In this document: positions 1,730-8,051 of the stretch, piece by piece | Layout of the letters: each line of letters starts with the position of its first letter | Position numbering within the stretch: the stretch's first letter is position 1 | Source: Candidatus Hydrogenedentota bacterium | GTDB lineage: Bacteria > UBA8481 > J006 | Length of the DNA stretch: 24,179 bases | Reading direction: 5' to 3' | Assembly (NCBI GenBank): GCA_003697085.1 | Contig: RFFU01000140.1 | Location: 1 to 24,179 of the forward strand | Program-made: the position numbers and the translations under genes | The notes under the pieces: model-generated | The model's input: the letters and a program-made list of their open reading frames with translations, nothing else | Database searches by the model: none | What the model was told of the DNA's origin: nothing

Positions 1730-2439
1730 TTCCTTATCAGCCCTTCGAGAAAGATCGTTCCCAATATCTTGACTCCGGCTCCGATCGTTCCCTTCACCGT
1801 TCCGCTGATCTTCGATTTCCCGACGCGTCTTCGATACGTGACGGGGACCTCGCGAATTACAAGCCCTCGTTTGATCGCCTTGACCTGCATCTCGACCGTC
1901 CAACCGTACGTCCGATCCGCCATCGCCAGTCGTTCAAGCGCTCTCCGCCGGATGACGCGAAACGGCCCGAGATCCGTAACCGGAGCGTTCCAGCGGAGGC
2001 GAATGAGGAACGCGGCCAGGGCGTTCCCGAAACGCTGCTGCGGTGTCAGAGCCCCCGGCTCCGCTCGCCCCAGAACCCGCGATCCGATTACGAGATCGGC
2101 TCCCCGCGAAATCTCCTCGAGCAATCGCGGGAGTTCCGCGGGATCGTCCGATCGATCGGCATCCGCAAAGGCGACGATCTCAACATCATCCCCCAACGTT
2201 GCGATTCCCGCCAGGCAGGCGGCGCCGTACCCTTGAATCTCCTCGCGCACAACCTCGGCTCCTCCCCGCTCCGCCTCCGCGGCCGTGGCATCGGTCGAGG
2301 CATTGTCGCAGACGACAATCCGATCGAGAAGAGGCGCTCCGTCCACGCAAAGCCCTCGAAATTCCTCCACGACCGCTCCCACGGATCTTTCCTCGTTGAA
2401 GGCCGGAATCACCAATCCGACGCGCTCACTCTTCCACAT
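1726..2439 (-). CDS. GT2 glycosyltransferase, polyprenyl-phosphate sugar synthase-like (Dpm1/DPG-type)
   Basis: This is a 237-residue GT-A fold enzyme. The N-terminus has the GT2 opening VIPAFNEE, followed by a nucleotide-binding CDNASTD and the metal-binding DAD motif in AFADADRSDDPAE, a layout typical of dolichyl- or polyprenyl-phosphate mannose and glucose synthases. The later GSR and DLGPFR segments and a basic C-terminal stretch (YRRRVGKSKISG) also fit that family. No membrane segment is evident, so it is probably a soluble or peripherally bound cytoplasmic enzyme. I chose ATG 2439, with GGAGG 10 nt upstream. It overlaps the end of the GT-C gene by 14 bp. Its likely role is to transfer a sugar from a nucleotide donor to a polyprenyl phosphate, giving the lipid-linked donor that GT-C enzymes such as its neighbour require. 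The sugar is not determined. Confidence 0.85.
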   Translation of the reverse strand: MWKSERVGLVIPAFNEERSVGAVVEEFRGLCVDGAPLLDRIVVCDNASTDATAAEAERGGAEVVREEIQGYGAACLAGIATLGDDVEIVAFADADRSDDPAELPRLLEEISRGADLVIGSRVLGRAEPGALTPQQRFGNALAAFLIRLRWNAPVTDLGPFRVIRRRALERLAMADRTYGWTVEMQVKAIKRGLVIREVPVTYRRRVGKSKISGTVKGTIGAGVKILGTIFLEGLIRK

Positions 2440-3901
2440 ACCCGCGCATCCTCCGCCGATACAATACTTCTCCCACCGCGGCCGCAACAAAGAGAAAAAC
2501 GATCGCCCTCTGCAATCCCACTCTCTCCCTCCATACGCCATACCGCGCCTCCGTCAGCAAGACCTCGTACGTCAACCCGCTCAGAACCAGAAAGAGCGCG
2601 ACGGATCCGGAACGAACGAGACAGAGCCAAGGAAGGAGATGAGTCAGATACCATGGATAGATGACCGGCTGAACGAGGAGGAAGAGAAGGAGAGTCATCG
2701 TAGCGACGAAAATCGTGTTGGAGGCCGTGAGAGACCAGAGGAAACCCGCCGAGAGAACAAGCCCGGACGCGACAGCGCGGGCGATTCCCTTTTCGCGGGG
2801 CGTTCCCGGCGCGAGGCGACGCGGCGAAGCCGGAAAAGAAACAAGATTCTCGACGGCGGGAACCCAGGAATCAACATGGAGGGATCGGTGAAGGACCCCG
2901 TTGAATTCCCAGTTCCGGTTGTATTCTTTGAGCGTCTCGAAGAGATCCGATCCCGCCGAGAGGTAAGGAATCACGACCAGGAGGGAGGCCAGAAGCGCGC
3001 CTCCGAGAAGAGCCTCCTTTCGGCGCACACGCGGTATCGCCGCTCCTGCGGCGATCGGAATGATCTTGATACCAACGGCGAGCGCGGCGCAAACTCCCGC
3101 GCCGACTCGCTTCCGAAGAAGCCACAGCCCCAGCGCGGCCCCGACCATCCCGACCGCCGCTCCGTCCAAATGCCCCGACCCGGCGAACTCGACGGCGGCC
3201 AGCGGAGAATACGCCCACCAGAGAAGCGCGCGATGGCCCTCCCGGCGCCGCGCGATCAGACCCGCTCCGAGCAGAACGAGCCCGAGGAATTCGCAGAGGA
3301 AGATTTCCACTTTCCAGGCCGTCAATTCCCTCCATCCAGTGATCTTCCGAATCGGCGCTATTCCGCGGGAAAGGATTTGTGCCGCGGGCGGATAAATCGT
3401 TCGATATTCTTTGTGATTGATCCTGGGCCAAACGCGATTGTCGCGCAAAGCCGAGAGTTCCTCGGCGCTGGGCGGATACCGATACGGATCGACACCGGCC
3501 GCCTGAACCCGGCCGTCCCAAATGTTGCGGTAGGCGTCGTCGGAGAGAACGGGGGAAAGGGGGACAAGCACGAGACGCATCGCGGCGGCGAAAAGGAGGA
3601 TGACCGCCAGTTCCCGCTTGGCGAGTCCAGAGTGCAACACGGTATTCTCATCCTTTTCCGGCGCGGCGTTTCGTCCCGCGCCGCATCCGCAGCCAGGCGT
3701 CTCTTCCGTACATCGATTTCGTCTCTCGTGACGGAAAAAGAAAAGAGAGAGAAGAAGAAGATGGAGGGTTCCGGCGAAAACGAGCACCGCGATCCAAGAA
3801 GCGATCCGCGCGGTTCTTGCGGCGGGCGCGAGGTGAAGGAGCGAGAGGACGGCCGTCAAAACGAGGCCGGAAACGGCGATCGCCGCTCGGCGGTCAGGCA
3901 T
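2426..3901 (-). CDS. Integral membrane GT-C glycosyltransferase (GT87/mannosyltransferase-like)
   Basis: This 491-residue protein is rich in hydrophobic segments, with roughly ten or more membrane spans. It carries the features of polyprenyl-phosphate-sugar-dependent GT-C enzymes: an acidic pair in an early external loop (SDDAYRNIWDG, Asp at about 121-122), followed by DPYRYPP at about 138-144, and later IYPP and SGHLDG motifs. These are typical of the GT87 and MptA-like mannosyltransferase group. A Cys- and charge-rich insertion lies at about residues 57-95, between the first membrane segments and the catalytic loop. ATG 3901 overlaps the stop of the upstream synthase by 8 bp (ATGCCTGA). The enzyme should transfer a sugar on the periplasmic side of the inner membrane. 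The Dpm-like gene directly downstream could supply its donor. Donor sugar and acceptor are unknown. Confidence 0.83.
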   Translation of the reverse strand: MPDRRAAIAVSGLVLTAVLSLLHLAPAARTARIASWIAVLVFAGTLHLLLLSLFFFRHERRNRCTEETPGCGCGAGRNAAPEKDENTVLHSGLAKRELAVILLFAAAMRLVLVPLSPVLSDDAYRNIWDGRVQAAGVDPYRYPPSAEELSALRDNRVWPRINHKEYRTIYPPAAQILSRGIAPIRKITGWRELTAWKVEIFLCEFLGLVLLGAGLIARRREGHRALLWWAYSPLAAVEFAGSGHLDGAAVGMVGAALGLWLLRKRVGAGVCAALAVGIKIIPIAAGAAIPRVRRKEALLGGALLASLLVVIPYLSAGSDLFETLKEYNRNWEFNGVLHRSLHVDSWVPAVENLVSFPASPRRLAPGTPREKGIARAVASGLVLSAGFLWSLTASNTIFVATMTLLLFLLVQPVIYPWYLTHLLPWLCLVRSGSVALFLVLSGLTYEVLLTEARYGVWRERVGLQRAIVFLFVAAAVGEVLYRRRMRGYVEE

Positions 3902-5459
3902 TCCCGGTAAGAGTTTCCCGAACCTGCCCCACGGTCATCGCGAACCACCCGATCGTGAAGAGAAGAGCCCATGGCGTTACGAAGAGACAACAAAGAACCG
4001 AGGCGATTATCGTAAAGAGGCCATAGAGTCCAAGGACGGCCTCGGCGACGATCAGTCGATCGAGACGCATTCTGTACCAGACCATTCCGATCGCCGGCGC
4101 AGAACCGTCTCTTCCGTATTTGGGTGTTCTGACGAATGGCGAATCGATACCAAGAAATCCCTCCAGAACCGCGCGGGTCGCGTTGAGGGAATTCCCGACT
4201 CCGAGGACAAGCAGAGCGAGGAACCGCCCCAAGAAACGGCGCAGAGGTGGGCGGCCGTCGGCGACATAATGGAAGAGTCCAACAATAACGGTCGTCGAGC
4301 CGAGCGCGATGGCATAAGCGGCCTTCCAGGCTGCACCGGCCTCGTGAAGAAGGGAGAGCAAGGGCAGAAAAAGAAGGAAGGAGGCCAGAGCCAGCGAGTA
4401 TGTCATCGGAGCCAGCAGATGCGCCACCGCCTCGGCTTTTACGCGAAAAGGAAGCCGCGCGCGAAGAAGACTTGGAAGAAGGTTCCTCGCCACCTGAGCC
4501 ATTCCCTTCATCCAGCGAAACTGCTGGGACTTGAAAGCCTTGTAGGTCGGAGGAAGTTCGGAAGCGCATTCCAGGTCGTCGAGATAGAGGAAACGCCACC
4601 CCGCCATCTGAGCCCGGTAGGAGAGATCGAGGTCCTCGGTCAGCATTCCTCCGTTCCACCCTCCGGCGGAGTGAATGGTCTCCGCACGCCAGATGCCAGC
4701 CGTTCCATTGAAGTTGAAGAAACACCCGTGCGCGCAACGAACGAAGTGTTCGAGCCGGAAGTGACCGTTGAGCGAAAGAGCCTGCGCCCGCGTCAGGAAC
4801 GAATCATCCTCGTTGAGAAAAGTCCACCGCCCCTGCACCATTCCGATCCGGGAATCGCGAAAGAACGGCACGGTCCGCGCCAGGAAATCCCGCGGCGGAA
4901 GAAAATCGGCGTCGAAGACGGCGACGAGTTCTCCACGAGCCTTTCGCAATCCTTCCTGCAAGGCCCCCGCCTTGAAACCGGCGCGACTCGAGCGGCGAAT
5001 CACGCGGATCGAGATGCCCTTCCGCTCGACATCCCGCGCGGCATGGTCCACAACCTCGCGCGTCGCATCGGTCGAATCGTCCAAAACCTGAATCTCAAAC
5101 CGATCGCGGGGATAATCCATCTCCGCCGCCGTTCGAATCAGCCGTTTCGCAACCATTCGTTCGTTGTAGAGCGGAAGTTGGATCGTCACAAACGGGACTT
5201 CATCGCTCGAGGCCGCCTCTTCTCCCCTCCGCCCGATTTTCGGTTTCGCCAGCACCGGATGTCTTCCGCTCCCGCGACCGCCTCGCTCGTGCTCCAAAAG
5301 CGATCCTGAACCGTCCTTTTCCTCCGTCGCCTTCGGGACGGCCGGCTCCCGACCCCGAGGCGAACGATAGCGGTACCAGAGGCGCAAGAGATGAAGGCGA
5401 TGGAGTCCGTAGAGCGAGAAACCGACGATCGAGATGAGAAGAAGGAGTTTCAGAACCAT
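3894..5459 (-). CDS. Processive GT2 synthase, cellulose/glucomannan synthase-like (CslA/BcsA-type)
   Basis: This 521-residue membrane glycosyltransferase has one N-terminal membrane segment, a charged linker at about residues 30-85, a cytoplasmic GT2 domain, and four or five C-terminal membrane segments. The full set of processive synthase motifs is present: QLPLYNE (94-100), LDDSTD (126-131), DAD (183-185), TED (274-276) and QQFRW (312-316, the QxxRW motif). The NFNGTAG and MLTEDLDLSYR blocks resemble plant CslA beta-mannan synthases and bacterial Csl proteins more than BcsA, and no PilZ domain is visible. I prefer ATG 5459 over the adjacent TTG at 5462. GGAG lies about 11 nt upstream. The enzyme likely polymerises a beta-linked glycan from a nucleotide sugar and extrudes it. 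A beta-mannan is suggested by the GH113-like neighbour, but this is not proven. Confidence 0.88.
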   Translation of the reverse strand: MVLKLLLLISIVGFSLYGLHRLHLLRLWYRYRSPRGREPAVPKATEEKDGSGSLLEHERGGRGSGRHPVLAKPKIGRRGEEAASSDEVPFVTIQLPLYNERMVAKRLIRTAAEMDYPRDRFEIQVLDDSTDATREVVDHAARDVERKGISIRVIRRSSRAGFKAGALQEGLRKARGELVAVFDADFLPPRDFLARTVPFFRDSRIGMVQGRWTFLNEDDSFLTRAQALSLNGHFRLEHFVRCAHGCFFNFNGTAGIWRAETIHSAGGWNGGMLTEDLDLSYRAQMAGWRFLYLDDLECASELPPTYKAFKSQQFRWMKGMAQVARNLLPSLLRARLPFRVKAEAVAHLLAPMTYSLALASFLLFLPLLSLLHEAGAAWKAAYAIALGSTTVIVGLFHYVADGRPPLRRFLGRFLALLVLGVGNSLNATRAVLEGFLGIDSPFVRTPKYGRDGSAPAIGMVWYRMRLDRLIVAEAVLGLYGLFTIIASVLCCLFVTPWALLFTIGWFAMTVGQVRETLTGNA

Positions 5460-5513
5460 CAACCGTGCCGCTCCTTTTCTCCCTGTTTCACGATTCTCAA
5501 AATTCCGCCGGGT

Positions 5514-8009
5514 TCAACAGCAACAAGAGGATCCCGCGGAGGATGACTTCTCATCCGAACCGACGCAACACGCCTTGAAGTCCGTCTCGTTTCCTTCGAG
5601 AACGACGAAGGAGTCCGCATAGGGAGGATGCGAAAGTTTCGCCGCCGTATCGGAGCAGACCTCGACCGGAATATTCCTCGGAAACCAATGGCCTTCTTCG
5701 TCGGCAATCCCCTTGAACGGACCGCGATAGATCGCCCATTGTCCGCGATAAACGCAATCCCCCTTCTTGGCGAACTTGTAGGCACGAACGGTGACGGAAT
5801 AGAAGCGATAGCTTTCAACCTCGCGCCAAAAACTCTTCTTCAGGACCTCGATCCCGTAGAATCCGGCCCGTTCCAACATCGCCAGAAACTCCTCCTCGGT
5901 CAGGGCGCCGCTGATGCATTCGCCCCAGAGCCGTGGATCCTTGCGCTGGTGCGGAGGCACTTCCTTTTCCGAAACGATATCCGCAACGACCATCCGGCCG
6001 TGGTCCTTGAGGACGCGCCAGATTTCGTTGAAGACCCGCATCTTGTCGGGGGACAGATTGACGACGCAGTTGGATGTAACGACATCGACCGAGGCATCCT
6101 CGAGCGGTACTTCCTCGAGAAATCCCTTGTGGAATTCAACGTTATCGTAGCCGAGGTTCCGAGCGACGATGGGCCGGCACCGCCGGGCTTCTTCCAACAT
6201 CCGATCGGTCATATCGACTCCGATCGCCCGTCCCTCCGGCCCCACTTTCTTCGCCGCGATAAAGACATCGATCCCCGCTCCACTGCCCAAGTCCAACGTC
6301 GTTTCCCCGGGGCGAATCGCGGCATCTTGAACGGGCGAGCCGCACCCGTAAAACCGCTCGACAACCTCCTTCGGTATGTGCTTCAAATCCTCGGGATCCG
6401 GACGCACCGGACAACACAGATCCTGTTGCGGCTCCTCCGCGGCGTCTCCGTAGAAGAGCCGGACCTTCTTGCGCGGAGCGTCGAAGTCGAAGGAGACGAC
6501 ACATTCGGAATGGGTCGTCGTGAAAGACACACCGCCGTCTCCCCGCGGGAACTCCTCGACCGCGGCACAGTGCACCCCGCCGTCTCCCATTCCGGTAAAG
6601 ACGACCGGCGTCTTGAATCCGGCGTTTCCATTGGCGCAGACTCGCCGTCGCTCCCTCACGAGATCAAAGAAGGCGTCCCGGTACATCTCCTTGTGAAGCT
6701 CACAGTAGGGATCGGGCGCCAGGATCGAACCCCGATGGAAATAGGCATGCTCGATATCCCCTCCTCCGCAGAGAAACTTCAGCGGACAGGCCCGGCAATC
6801 CTCTTTCCGCTCCACCGTCGCGTCCCGAAACTCCTCCGTCACCCGGCTCTTCTTCCAAATCTCCTCGAGCGAAGACTCCGTCACATCGCCACACCGAAGG
6901 GCCTCGACATTCGCCATCGCCGCCGAGGGATAGACGGTTCCGTCGCAATAGACGCAGAGAGAGTTGACTCCGGCGACGGAAAGATCGCGCCGCGTATAAG
7001 GTGGTAATTTCAAGCGGCCTTTGAGCGCCTCGTGATTGTCCACGATCACGCCGAGTTCGTCCCCGATCCGCCGGCACTCGCGCACAACGGCGACGATCTC
7101 GGGAACCGTCGGAACAAGCGCGTCGTCGGCCCGTCCGCGCTTGTGGATCCAGAGAAGGTGGTGCGCAAAGGCCCCGAGTTCACCCGCCAGCCGCGTTACG
7201 CGCGGAATGTCATCGAGGTTCTTCGCCGTCACCACGGACGTCAGAGTCACGTGAAATCCCGCGTCCACCGCATTGCGGATTCCCTCGACGATCCGCATGA
7301 AACTCCCCTCCCCGCGGATCGCGTCGTTCGTCTCGGCGTTCGATCCATCGATGCTGATTTGGAGCCGAAAGCGATCGCGATCCAATCTCTTCAGCCTCTC
7401 CATCAAGGCGCCCTTGAGCGGAATCCCGTTCGTCAAAACAGCGGCTTCGGCTTCAGGATCCGAAAGGATTTCCTCGAGAAGATCAGGAAGATCGCGGCGG
7501 AGAAACGGTTCGCCTCCGGTGATGAAGAAGCGCTTCGTCCCCAAGGAGCGGGCCTGGCGGATCACATCGAGCCATCGATCCGTGGGCAGCCCCTTTTCGC
7601 CGGCCGGCCCGGAGGAAACAAGACAGTGGGTGCACGAAAGGTTACAGGAATTGTTCGTATGGAGCCAAAGTTCGCTCAGGGGCGCGTCTTGCACCCACGC
7701 ACGCCGCCCCCGGTACGGAATCTCCTCTTCCTCCTCTCGTTCGTCGAGAAAACGGTACCGGAGCGCGTCGCCGGCGACGGTCATCACATCTTGATAGGCG
7801 CGGACCCATTCGAGATCGTTCCGGCGCGCGTAATCCGAGACAACCTCCCCCACCGTTCGCGATCCGTCGAAGGCCTTCAGAATCTCCTTTCCGCGTTCGT
7901 CCAGACCGATCCAATTCGGCGCGGATGGGCGCACGAAGACGACCAGTTCCCCTTCCCGATACTCGACCCCCGGCCGAAAGAAAGGCCGGCTCTTCTCCGT
8001 CAATACCAC
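5514..8009 (-). CDS. Radical SAM/SPASM protein fused to ArsM-type arsenite S-adenosylmethionine methyltransferase
   Basis: This is an 831-residue fusion. Residues 5-85 resemble a PqqD-like small domain. Residues 115-445 are a radical SAM barrel with the CX3CX2C cluster motif (Cys 122, 126, 129), the TGGEPF block, and a SPASM-type Cys-rich tail (Cys 352, 355, 405, 408, 414, 436). A linker follows, and residues 530-815 form a full ArsM. That part has the SAM motif [10 protein letters not shown] (572-581) and all the cysteines known to bind As(III) in ArsM: CC at 532-533, the YGCG Cys 556, the SNC Cys 648 and the GEC Cys 698. The ArsM C-terminal domain is present, and the protein ends in Cys-Cys-Cys. 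I chose GTG 8009 because GAGGAGG (8016-8022) sits 6 nt upstream. A GTG at 8024 would overlap that ribosome site. ArsM methylates arsenite. The radical SAM half may further modify an organoarsenical or a peptide, and its substrate is unknown. Confidence 0.88.
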
Positions 8010-8015
8010 GGTGTT

Positions 8016-8022
8016 CCTCCTC
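8016..8022 (-). promoter_or_regulatory. Ribosome binding site that decides the radical SAM-ArsM start
   Basis: GAGGAGG on the minus strand lies 6 nt before GTG 8009. The alternative GTG at 8024 includes part of this element, so the shorter protein is the better call. Confidence 0.75.
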
Positions 8023-8051
8023 ACACTTCACGACCAACACATTGTTGCCGG

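Follow-up and report, generated by a model that had tools for sequence, protein, structure and literature searches.

The window analysed here, a 24,179-nt contig from a Candidatus Hydrogenedentota bacterium (RFFU01000140.1), encodes a protein in which a radical SAM enzyme is joined to an arsenite methyltransferase, ArsM. An earlier note, made from the letters of this DNA, proposed that such a fusion could pass a methylarsenical from one active site to the other, and gave peptide modification as the alternative. The locus raises the question of whether the two halves act on the same arsenic atom and, if so, what they would make. The assembly to which this contig belongs totals 3.2 Mb in 145 contigs and is 94.6% complete, and the GC content of the fusion gene (0.603) is the same as that of its surroundings.

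Architecture and active sites of the fusion protein

Frame analysis of the window found a single uninterrupted ORF (5514..8024, minus strand). Translation from the GTG at 8009 to the stop at 5514 gives a protein of 831 aa (5514..8009, minus strand). This GTG is the likely start because a Shine-Dalgarno-like AGGAGG (8016..8021, minus strand) lies 6 nt 5' of it, and the gene span given in the earlier note, 5514-8009 as one fused ORF, was thereby upheld. Residue numbers refer to the 836-aa frame starting at 8024 and not to the 831-aa protein. Pfam and NCBIfam models placed the radical SAM domain at residues 125-276, SPASM at 353-414 and ArsM from about residue 538. An AlphaFold2 model built from a 23-sequence alignment was confident (pLDDT 86, pTM 0.87).

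The C-terminal half is a complete ArsM, as had been claimed. The domain (residues 515-812; 5589..6482, minus strand) matched NF008823 with an E-value of 4.8e-72, at a score of 242.7 bits that is under the curated 263 bits. The closest sequences with solved structures were CrArsM and CmArsM, and modelled residues 540-812 superposed on CmArsM (4fr0; Z 27.2, rmsd 6.7 over 270 residues) with the ArsM fold, including the C-terminal domain. The As(III)-binding cysteines are C537/C538, C561, C653 and C703. Of these, C561, C653 and C703 correspond in the alignment to CmArsM Cys72, Cys174 and Cys224, and the C537-C538 pair sits at the position of Cys44, judged by motif. All four positions are invariant in 23 aligned members of class A, the window's own class, with the order PqqD-like-radical SAM-SPASM-ArsM. 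The gene ends in a Cys-Cys-Cys sequence (5517..5525, minus strand), of which CC is conserved in the homolog alignment.

The radical SAM core (residues 125-276; 7197..7652, minus strand; PF04055, 6.9e-25) carries the CX3CX2C motif at 7623-7646 as C127, C131 and C134, which are likewise invariant in the 23 members. It is followed by the SPASM domain (residues 353-441; 6702..6968, minus strand; PF13186, 3.4e-9), whose cysteines C357, C410, C413, C419 and C441 are near-invariant in the same alignment, with losses in L113 and L115. D423 occupies the place of a fourth cysteine of the SPASM motif, as an Asp does in PqqE. Both the CX3CX2C motif and the SPASM-type cysteine tail described from the sequence were therefore confirmed by Pfam and the homologs. 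The linker to ArsM (residues 465-514; 6483..6632, minus strand) contains a further cysteine, C508, which does not vary among the 23 aligned members of class A or in the class C and D members introduced below.

The N-terminal PqqD-like domain (residues 17-91; 7752..7976, minus strand) stood in part. Its Pfam PqqD match was below threshold (20.9 vs 23.4 bits), but modelled residues 17-459 superposed on the RRE enzyme CteB (5wgg; Z 31.4, rmsd 4.4 over 412 residues), so that an RRE, radical SAM and SPASM fold is predicted for the fusion. These matches, together with those to CmArsM and the conserved residues, support the domain order and the integrity of the active sites. The radical SAM part did not prove to be ArsS itself: the ArsS profile TIGR04167 scored 49.7 bits against a cut-off of 300 bits, and the fold is like that of RRE/SPASM peptide maturases.

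This likeness argues for a reading in which the N-terminal half acts as a RiPP maturase, its PqqD-like domain recruiting a peptide, the radical SAM/SPASM part modifying it and ArsM methylating it or loading arsenic. CteB is a sactisynthase, other maturases matched residues 17-459 as well, and the closest solved sequences to this half were PqqE and SkfB. We nevertheless consider this reading improbable on the evidence of relatives and gene neighbourhoods given in the next section.

Relatives and gene neighbourhoods

A database search for the same domain order found it in about 30 further genomes, which belong to several phyla. Full-length relatives, at 47-60% identity, came from Acidobacteriota, Planctomycetota and several other groups. 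Given this recurrence and the invariance of the catalytic cysteines in 23 members, the fusion is not a chance join. A stop within the fusion was found in one of 31 relatives, G410, where a TAG in the radical SAM part stands opposite the otherwise invariant S224. The earlier note had named a split by a stop in close relatives as evidence against its proposal, but G410 is a single case, and its TAG may reflect gene decay or an error in sequencing. A plasmid search yielded no full-length fusion. N-terminal extensions of L126, L131 and L132 had no NCBIfam match and were taken as upstream read-through.

Three further classes were distinguished. Class B (loci L134-L142) is a short radical SAM-ArsM protein of about 610 aa without the PqqD-like domain. 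Class C (L079, L080) is a triple fusion, radical SAM-ArsM-DUF5714, of about 1,020 aa (L116:8318-11368; L117:12-3101; DUF5714 by Pfam in L116 only), which has lost the SPASM cysteines and the CC of ArsM and kept CX3CX2C. L118 (class D) has the class A domain order and a separate placement.

In the window, the fusion gene is followed at 52 bp downstream by a gene for a CESA-like GT2 glycosyltransferase (3894..5462, minus strand; Pfam), which overlaps one for a GT87-like membrane glycosyltransferase (2426..3901, minus strand; Pfam). By BLAST, eight other loci have a homolog of the GT2 protein no more than about 4.5 kb from the fusion, and direct BLAST placed homologs of the GT87 protein near it in nine; the long alignments showed 34-44% identity for GT2 and 25-30% for GT87. 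A GH113-like glycoside hydrolase gene (window:428-1903) lies downstream of the GT87-like gene on the same strand.

Neighbours were clustered over 40 loci, comprising 31 with long fusions (classes A, C and D together) and nine of class B. Genes similar to the arsenosugar-type glycosyltransferase families TIGR04282/TIGR04283 occurred near the fusion in 16 of the 40, many of them directly adjacent. Other recurring neighbours were VTT-domain proteins (12 loci), GT87-like (11) and CESA-like GT2 (nine) glycosyltransferases and a MerA-like FAD oxidoreductase (nine). These counts are approximate because the single-linkage clustering also drew in some spurious ORFs of GC-rich regions. L139 unites GT2, DUF3179-family, GT87, fusion and TIGR04282/04283-like genes.

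On the window contig, where GT2 and GT87 genes are the fusion's neighbours, no TIGR04282/04283 match exceeded the cut-off. Elsewhere in the same genome, on contig C70, both models matched over cut-off within one 510-aa protein (L060:848-2380). A sigma-factor-like gene adjoins it; its best match, at 41% identity, neighbours a lone ArsM in L143.

A search of the 2.5 kb around class A fusions, which distant or very short ORFs could escape, gave no convincing small ORF that is conserved. The fold allows the peptide-modifying alternative of the earlier note, but this search yielded no conserved precursor peptide to go with it. Two features of the relatives also count against a RiPP maturase: the SPASM cysteines are lost in L113, L115 and class C without loss of the catalytic cysteines of radical SAM and ArsM, and class B, which lacks the PqqD-like domain, has neighbourhoods resembling those of class A.

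Two other genes were seen near fusions. An ArsC-like arsenate reductase fused to an Acr3 arsenite efflux transporter (L061:296-1816) is encoded some 7 kb away from the fusion, and a DUF547 gene stands just upstream of it in L120 (7762-8823, Pfam) and L061 (7978-8802, by eye).

Co-occurrence with ArsS and phylogeny

We measured co-occurrence in a set of 392 genomes grouped as the phylum of G061, the Planctomycetota genome that carries locus L010. A radical SAM-ArsM fusion was present in 25 genomes and ArsS in 131 (E<=1e-50; 130 over cut-off). None of the 25 fusion genomes had ArsS, as against 131 of the 367 others (Fisher p 3e-5, ancestry ignored). TIGR04283 was found in 21 of the 25 fusion genomes vs 127 of the 367 others (p 1e-6, ancestry ignored); the remaining four fusion genomes, some of them fragmentary, had no match. 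Among the 148 genomes with TIGR04283, 90 had ArsS, 21 had the fusion and none had both. In a second, broader sample of 336 genomes, ArsS was detected in 55, none of them fusion-bearing, which is not significant alone (p 0.11-0.14, ancestry ignored); TIGR04283 was present in 13 of 15 fusion genomes, the window's included. The window genome contained no ArsS above cut-off.

This distribution suggests that the fusions do, in a single protein, the arsenosugar-type job of ArsS-using genomes. The link to organoarsenical synthesis drawn in the earlier note thus gained support from the absence of overlap with ArsS and from the adjacent arsenosugar-type glycosyltransferases in related loci.

The same two observations bear on a further reading, in which the protein is a detoxification methyltransferase with the radical SAM part fused to it for shared regulation or a redox role only, and no linked reaction. 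ArsM alone would detoxify, and the ArsC-Acr3 gene near the fusion in one genome (L061) fits such a role, but the strictly conserved radical SAM motif speaks against it along with the glycosyltransferase association and the non-overlap with ArsS. We regard this reading as very unlikely.

In the ArsM tree, the ArsM domains of fusions grouped in a single clade with the ArsMs encoded beside ArsS (SH-aLRT 96), and most stand-alone ArsMs fell outside it. The radical SAM tree set class A apart from class B and ArsS on a branch with SH-aLRT 100%, and this tree is suggestive of separate radical SAM lineages among the fusions. The AU test did not bear out separate origins, as it did not reject a single clade of all fusions (p 0.21) or of class A with ArsS (p 0.11); the ArsM trees are likewise compatible with a single clade, and the fusions may have arisen once or several times. 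It is conceivable, though we advance it only tentatively, that a radical SAM lineage which is not ArsS, and which derives from RRE/SPASM peptide maturases, became joined to ArsM and assumed the C-As step of arsenosugar synthesis in many bacterial lineages, so that this step evolved more than once.

Proposed reaction and comparison with known systems

We lean slightly towards reading the fusion as a bifunctional C-As bond-forming organoarsenical synthase that combines ArsM with an ArsS-like step. The intact catalytic cysteines, the gene neighbourhoods, the non-overlap with ArsS and the clade that the ArsM domains share with ArsMs beside ArsS speak for it; the absence of TIGR04282/04283 matches over cut-off on the window contig and the four fusion genomes with no TIGR04283 match speak against it. 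The ArsM half would methylate As(III), probably to the dimethyl stage, and the radical SAM half would then draw on a second SAM for a carbon group and join it to the methylarsenical, possibly after a hand-over between the two sites. The group transferred would most likely be 5'-deoxyadenosyl, as by ArsS, and the product may be the precursor of an arsenosugar-type compound, to be processed by the TIGR04282/TIGR04283 glycosyltransferases. Equal chemistry with ArsS is a proposal that we infer from context, because the profile score sets the radical SAM domain apart from ArsS and its fold is that of peptide maturases.

That same difference from ArsS favours a reading in which the radical SAM half makes another C-As bond, transferring 3-amino-3-carboxypropyl as ArsL does or some other alkyl group, so that the product would not be a classical arsenosugar. 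ArsL, which transfers the 3-amino-3-carboxypropyl group to As in arsinothricin biosynthesis, pairs with ArsM for this chemistry (PMC8552651), and the fusion's ArsM scored 208.5 bits against the arsinothricin ArsM model, below its 500-bit cut-off. The association with glycosyltransferases and the non-overlap with ArsS point instead to arsenosugar-type products, and we consider such a different bond unlikely.

Fusions of a radical SAM enzyme with ArsM are already known as such, to judge by the title of Yang et al. (2024, Environ Sci Technol 58:19266; via PMC12124457), which names an 'ArsSM fusion protein' from a sulfate-reducing organism. By its name, ArsSM also joins an ArsS-type radical SAM enzyme to ArsM; as compared by title, it could be class A, class B or neither. 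The ArsL and ArsM of arsinothricin synthesis similarly pair a radical SAM enzyme with ArsM for an organoarsenical, but as separate genes (PMC8552651). ArsM/AS3MT enzymes (CmArsM, 4fr0; CrArsM, 5evj) have the domain, fold and As(III) cysteines in common with the fusion, in which ArsM makes up the C-terminal half of the 831 aa and falls below the curated NF008823 score. RRE radical SAM/SPASM maturases (CteB, 5wgg; SkfB, 6efn; PqqE, 6c8v) have the same fold and domain order as residues 17-459, whereas the fusion has ArsM, no precursor peptide found within 2.5 kb and, in some members, lost SPASM cysteines.

If the synthase reading is true, organoarsenical synthesis could be predicted in many uncultured bacteria without ArsS, which ArsS-based searches miss. 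The fusion would then be a one-protein system for two SAM chemistries on a single arsenic atom, with a peptide-maturase-like fold serving a small metalloid substrate.

ArsS (TIGR04167) adenosylates arsenic in arsenosugar synthesis, according to Cheng et al. (2021) as cited in PMC12159101. It resembles the fusion in being a radical SAM enzyme that works with ArsM and in its TIGR04282/TIGR04283 company, but it is a separate gene adjoining arsM (L148-L151) and never occurred in the same genome as a fusion in the samples searched. In L148-L151, from ArsS-bearing genomes, arsM and arsS stand in a row with a third gene, which by eye looks like one for purine nucleoside phosphorylase. This phosphorylase-like gene had no homolog in the fusion neighbourhoods.
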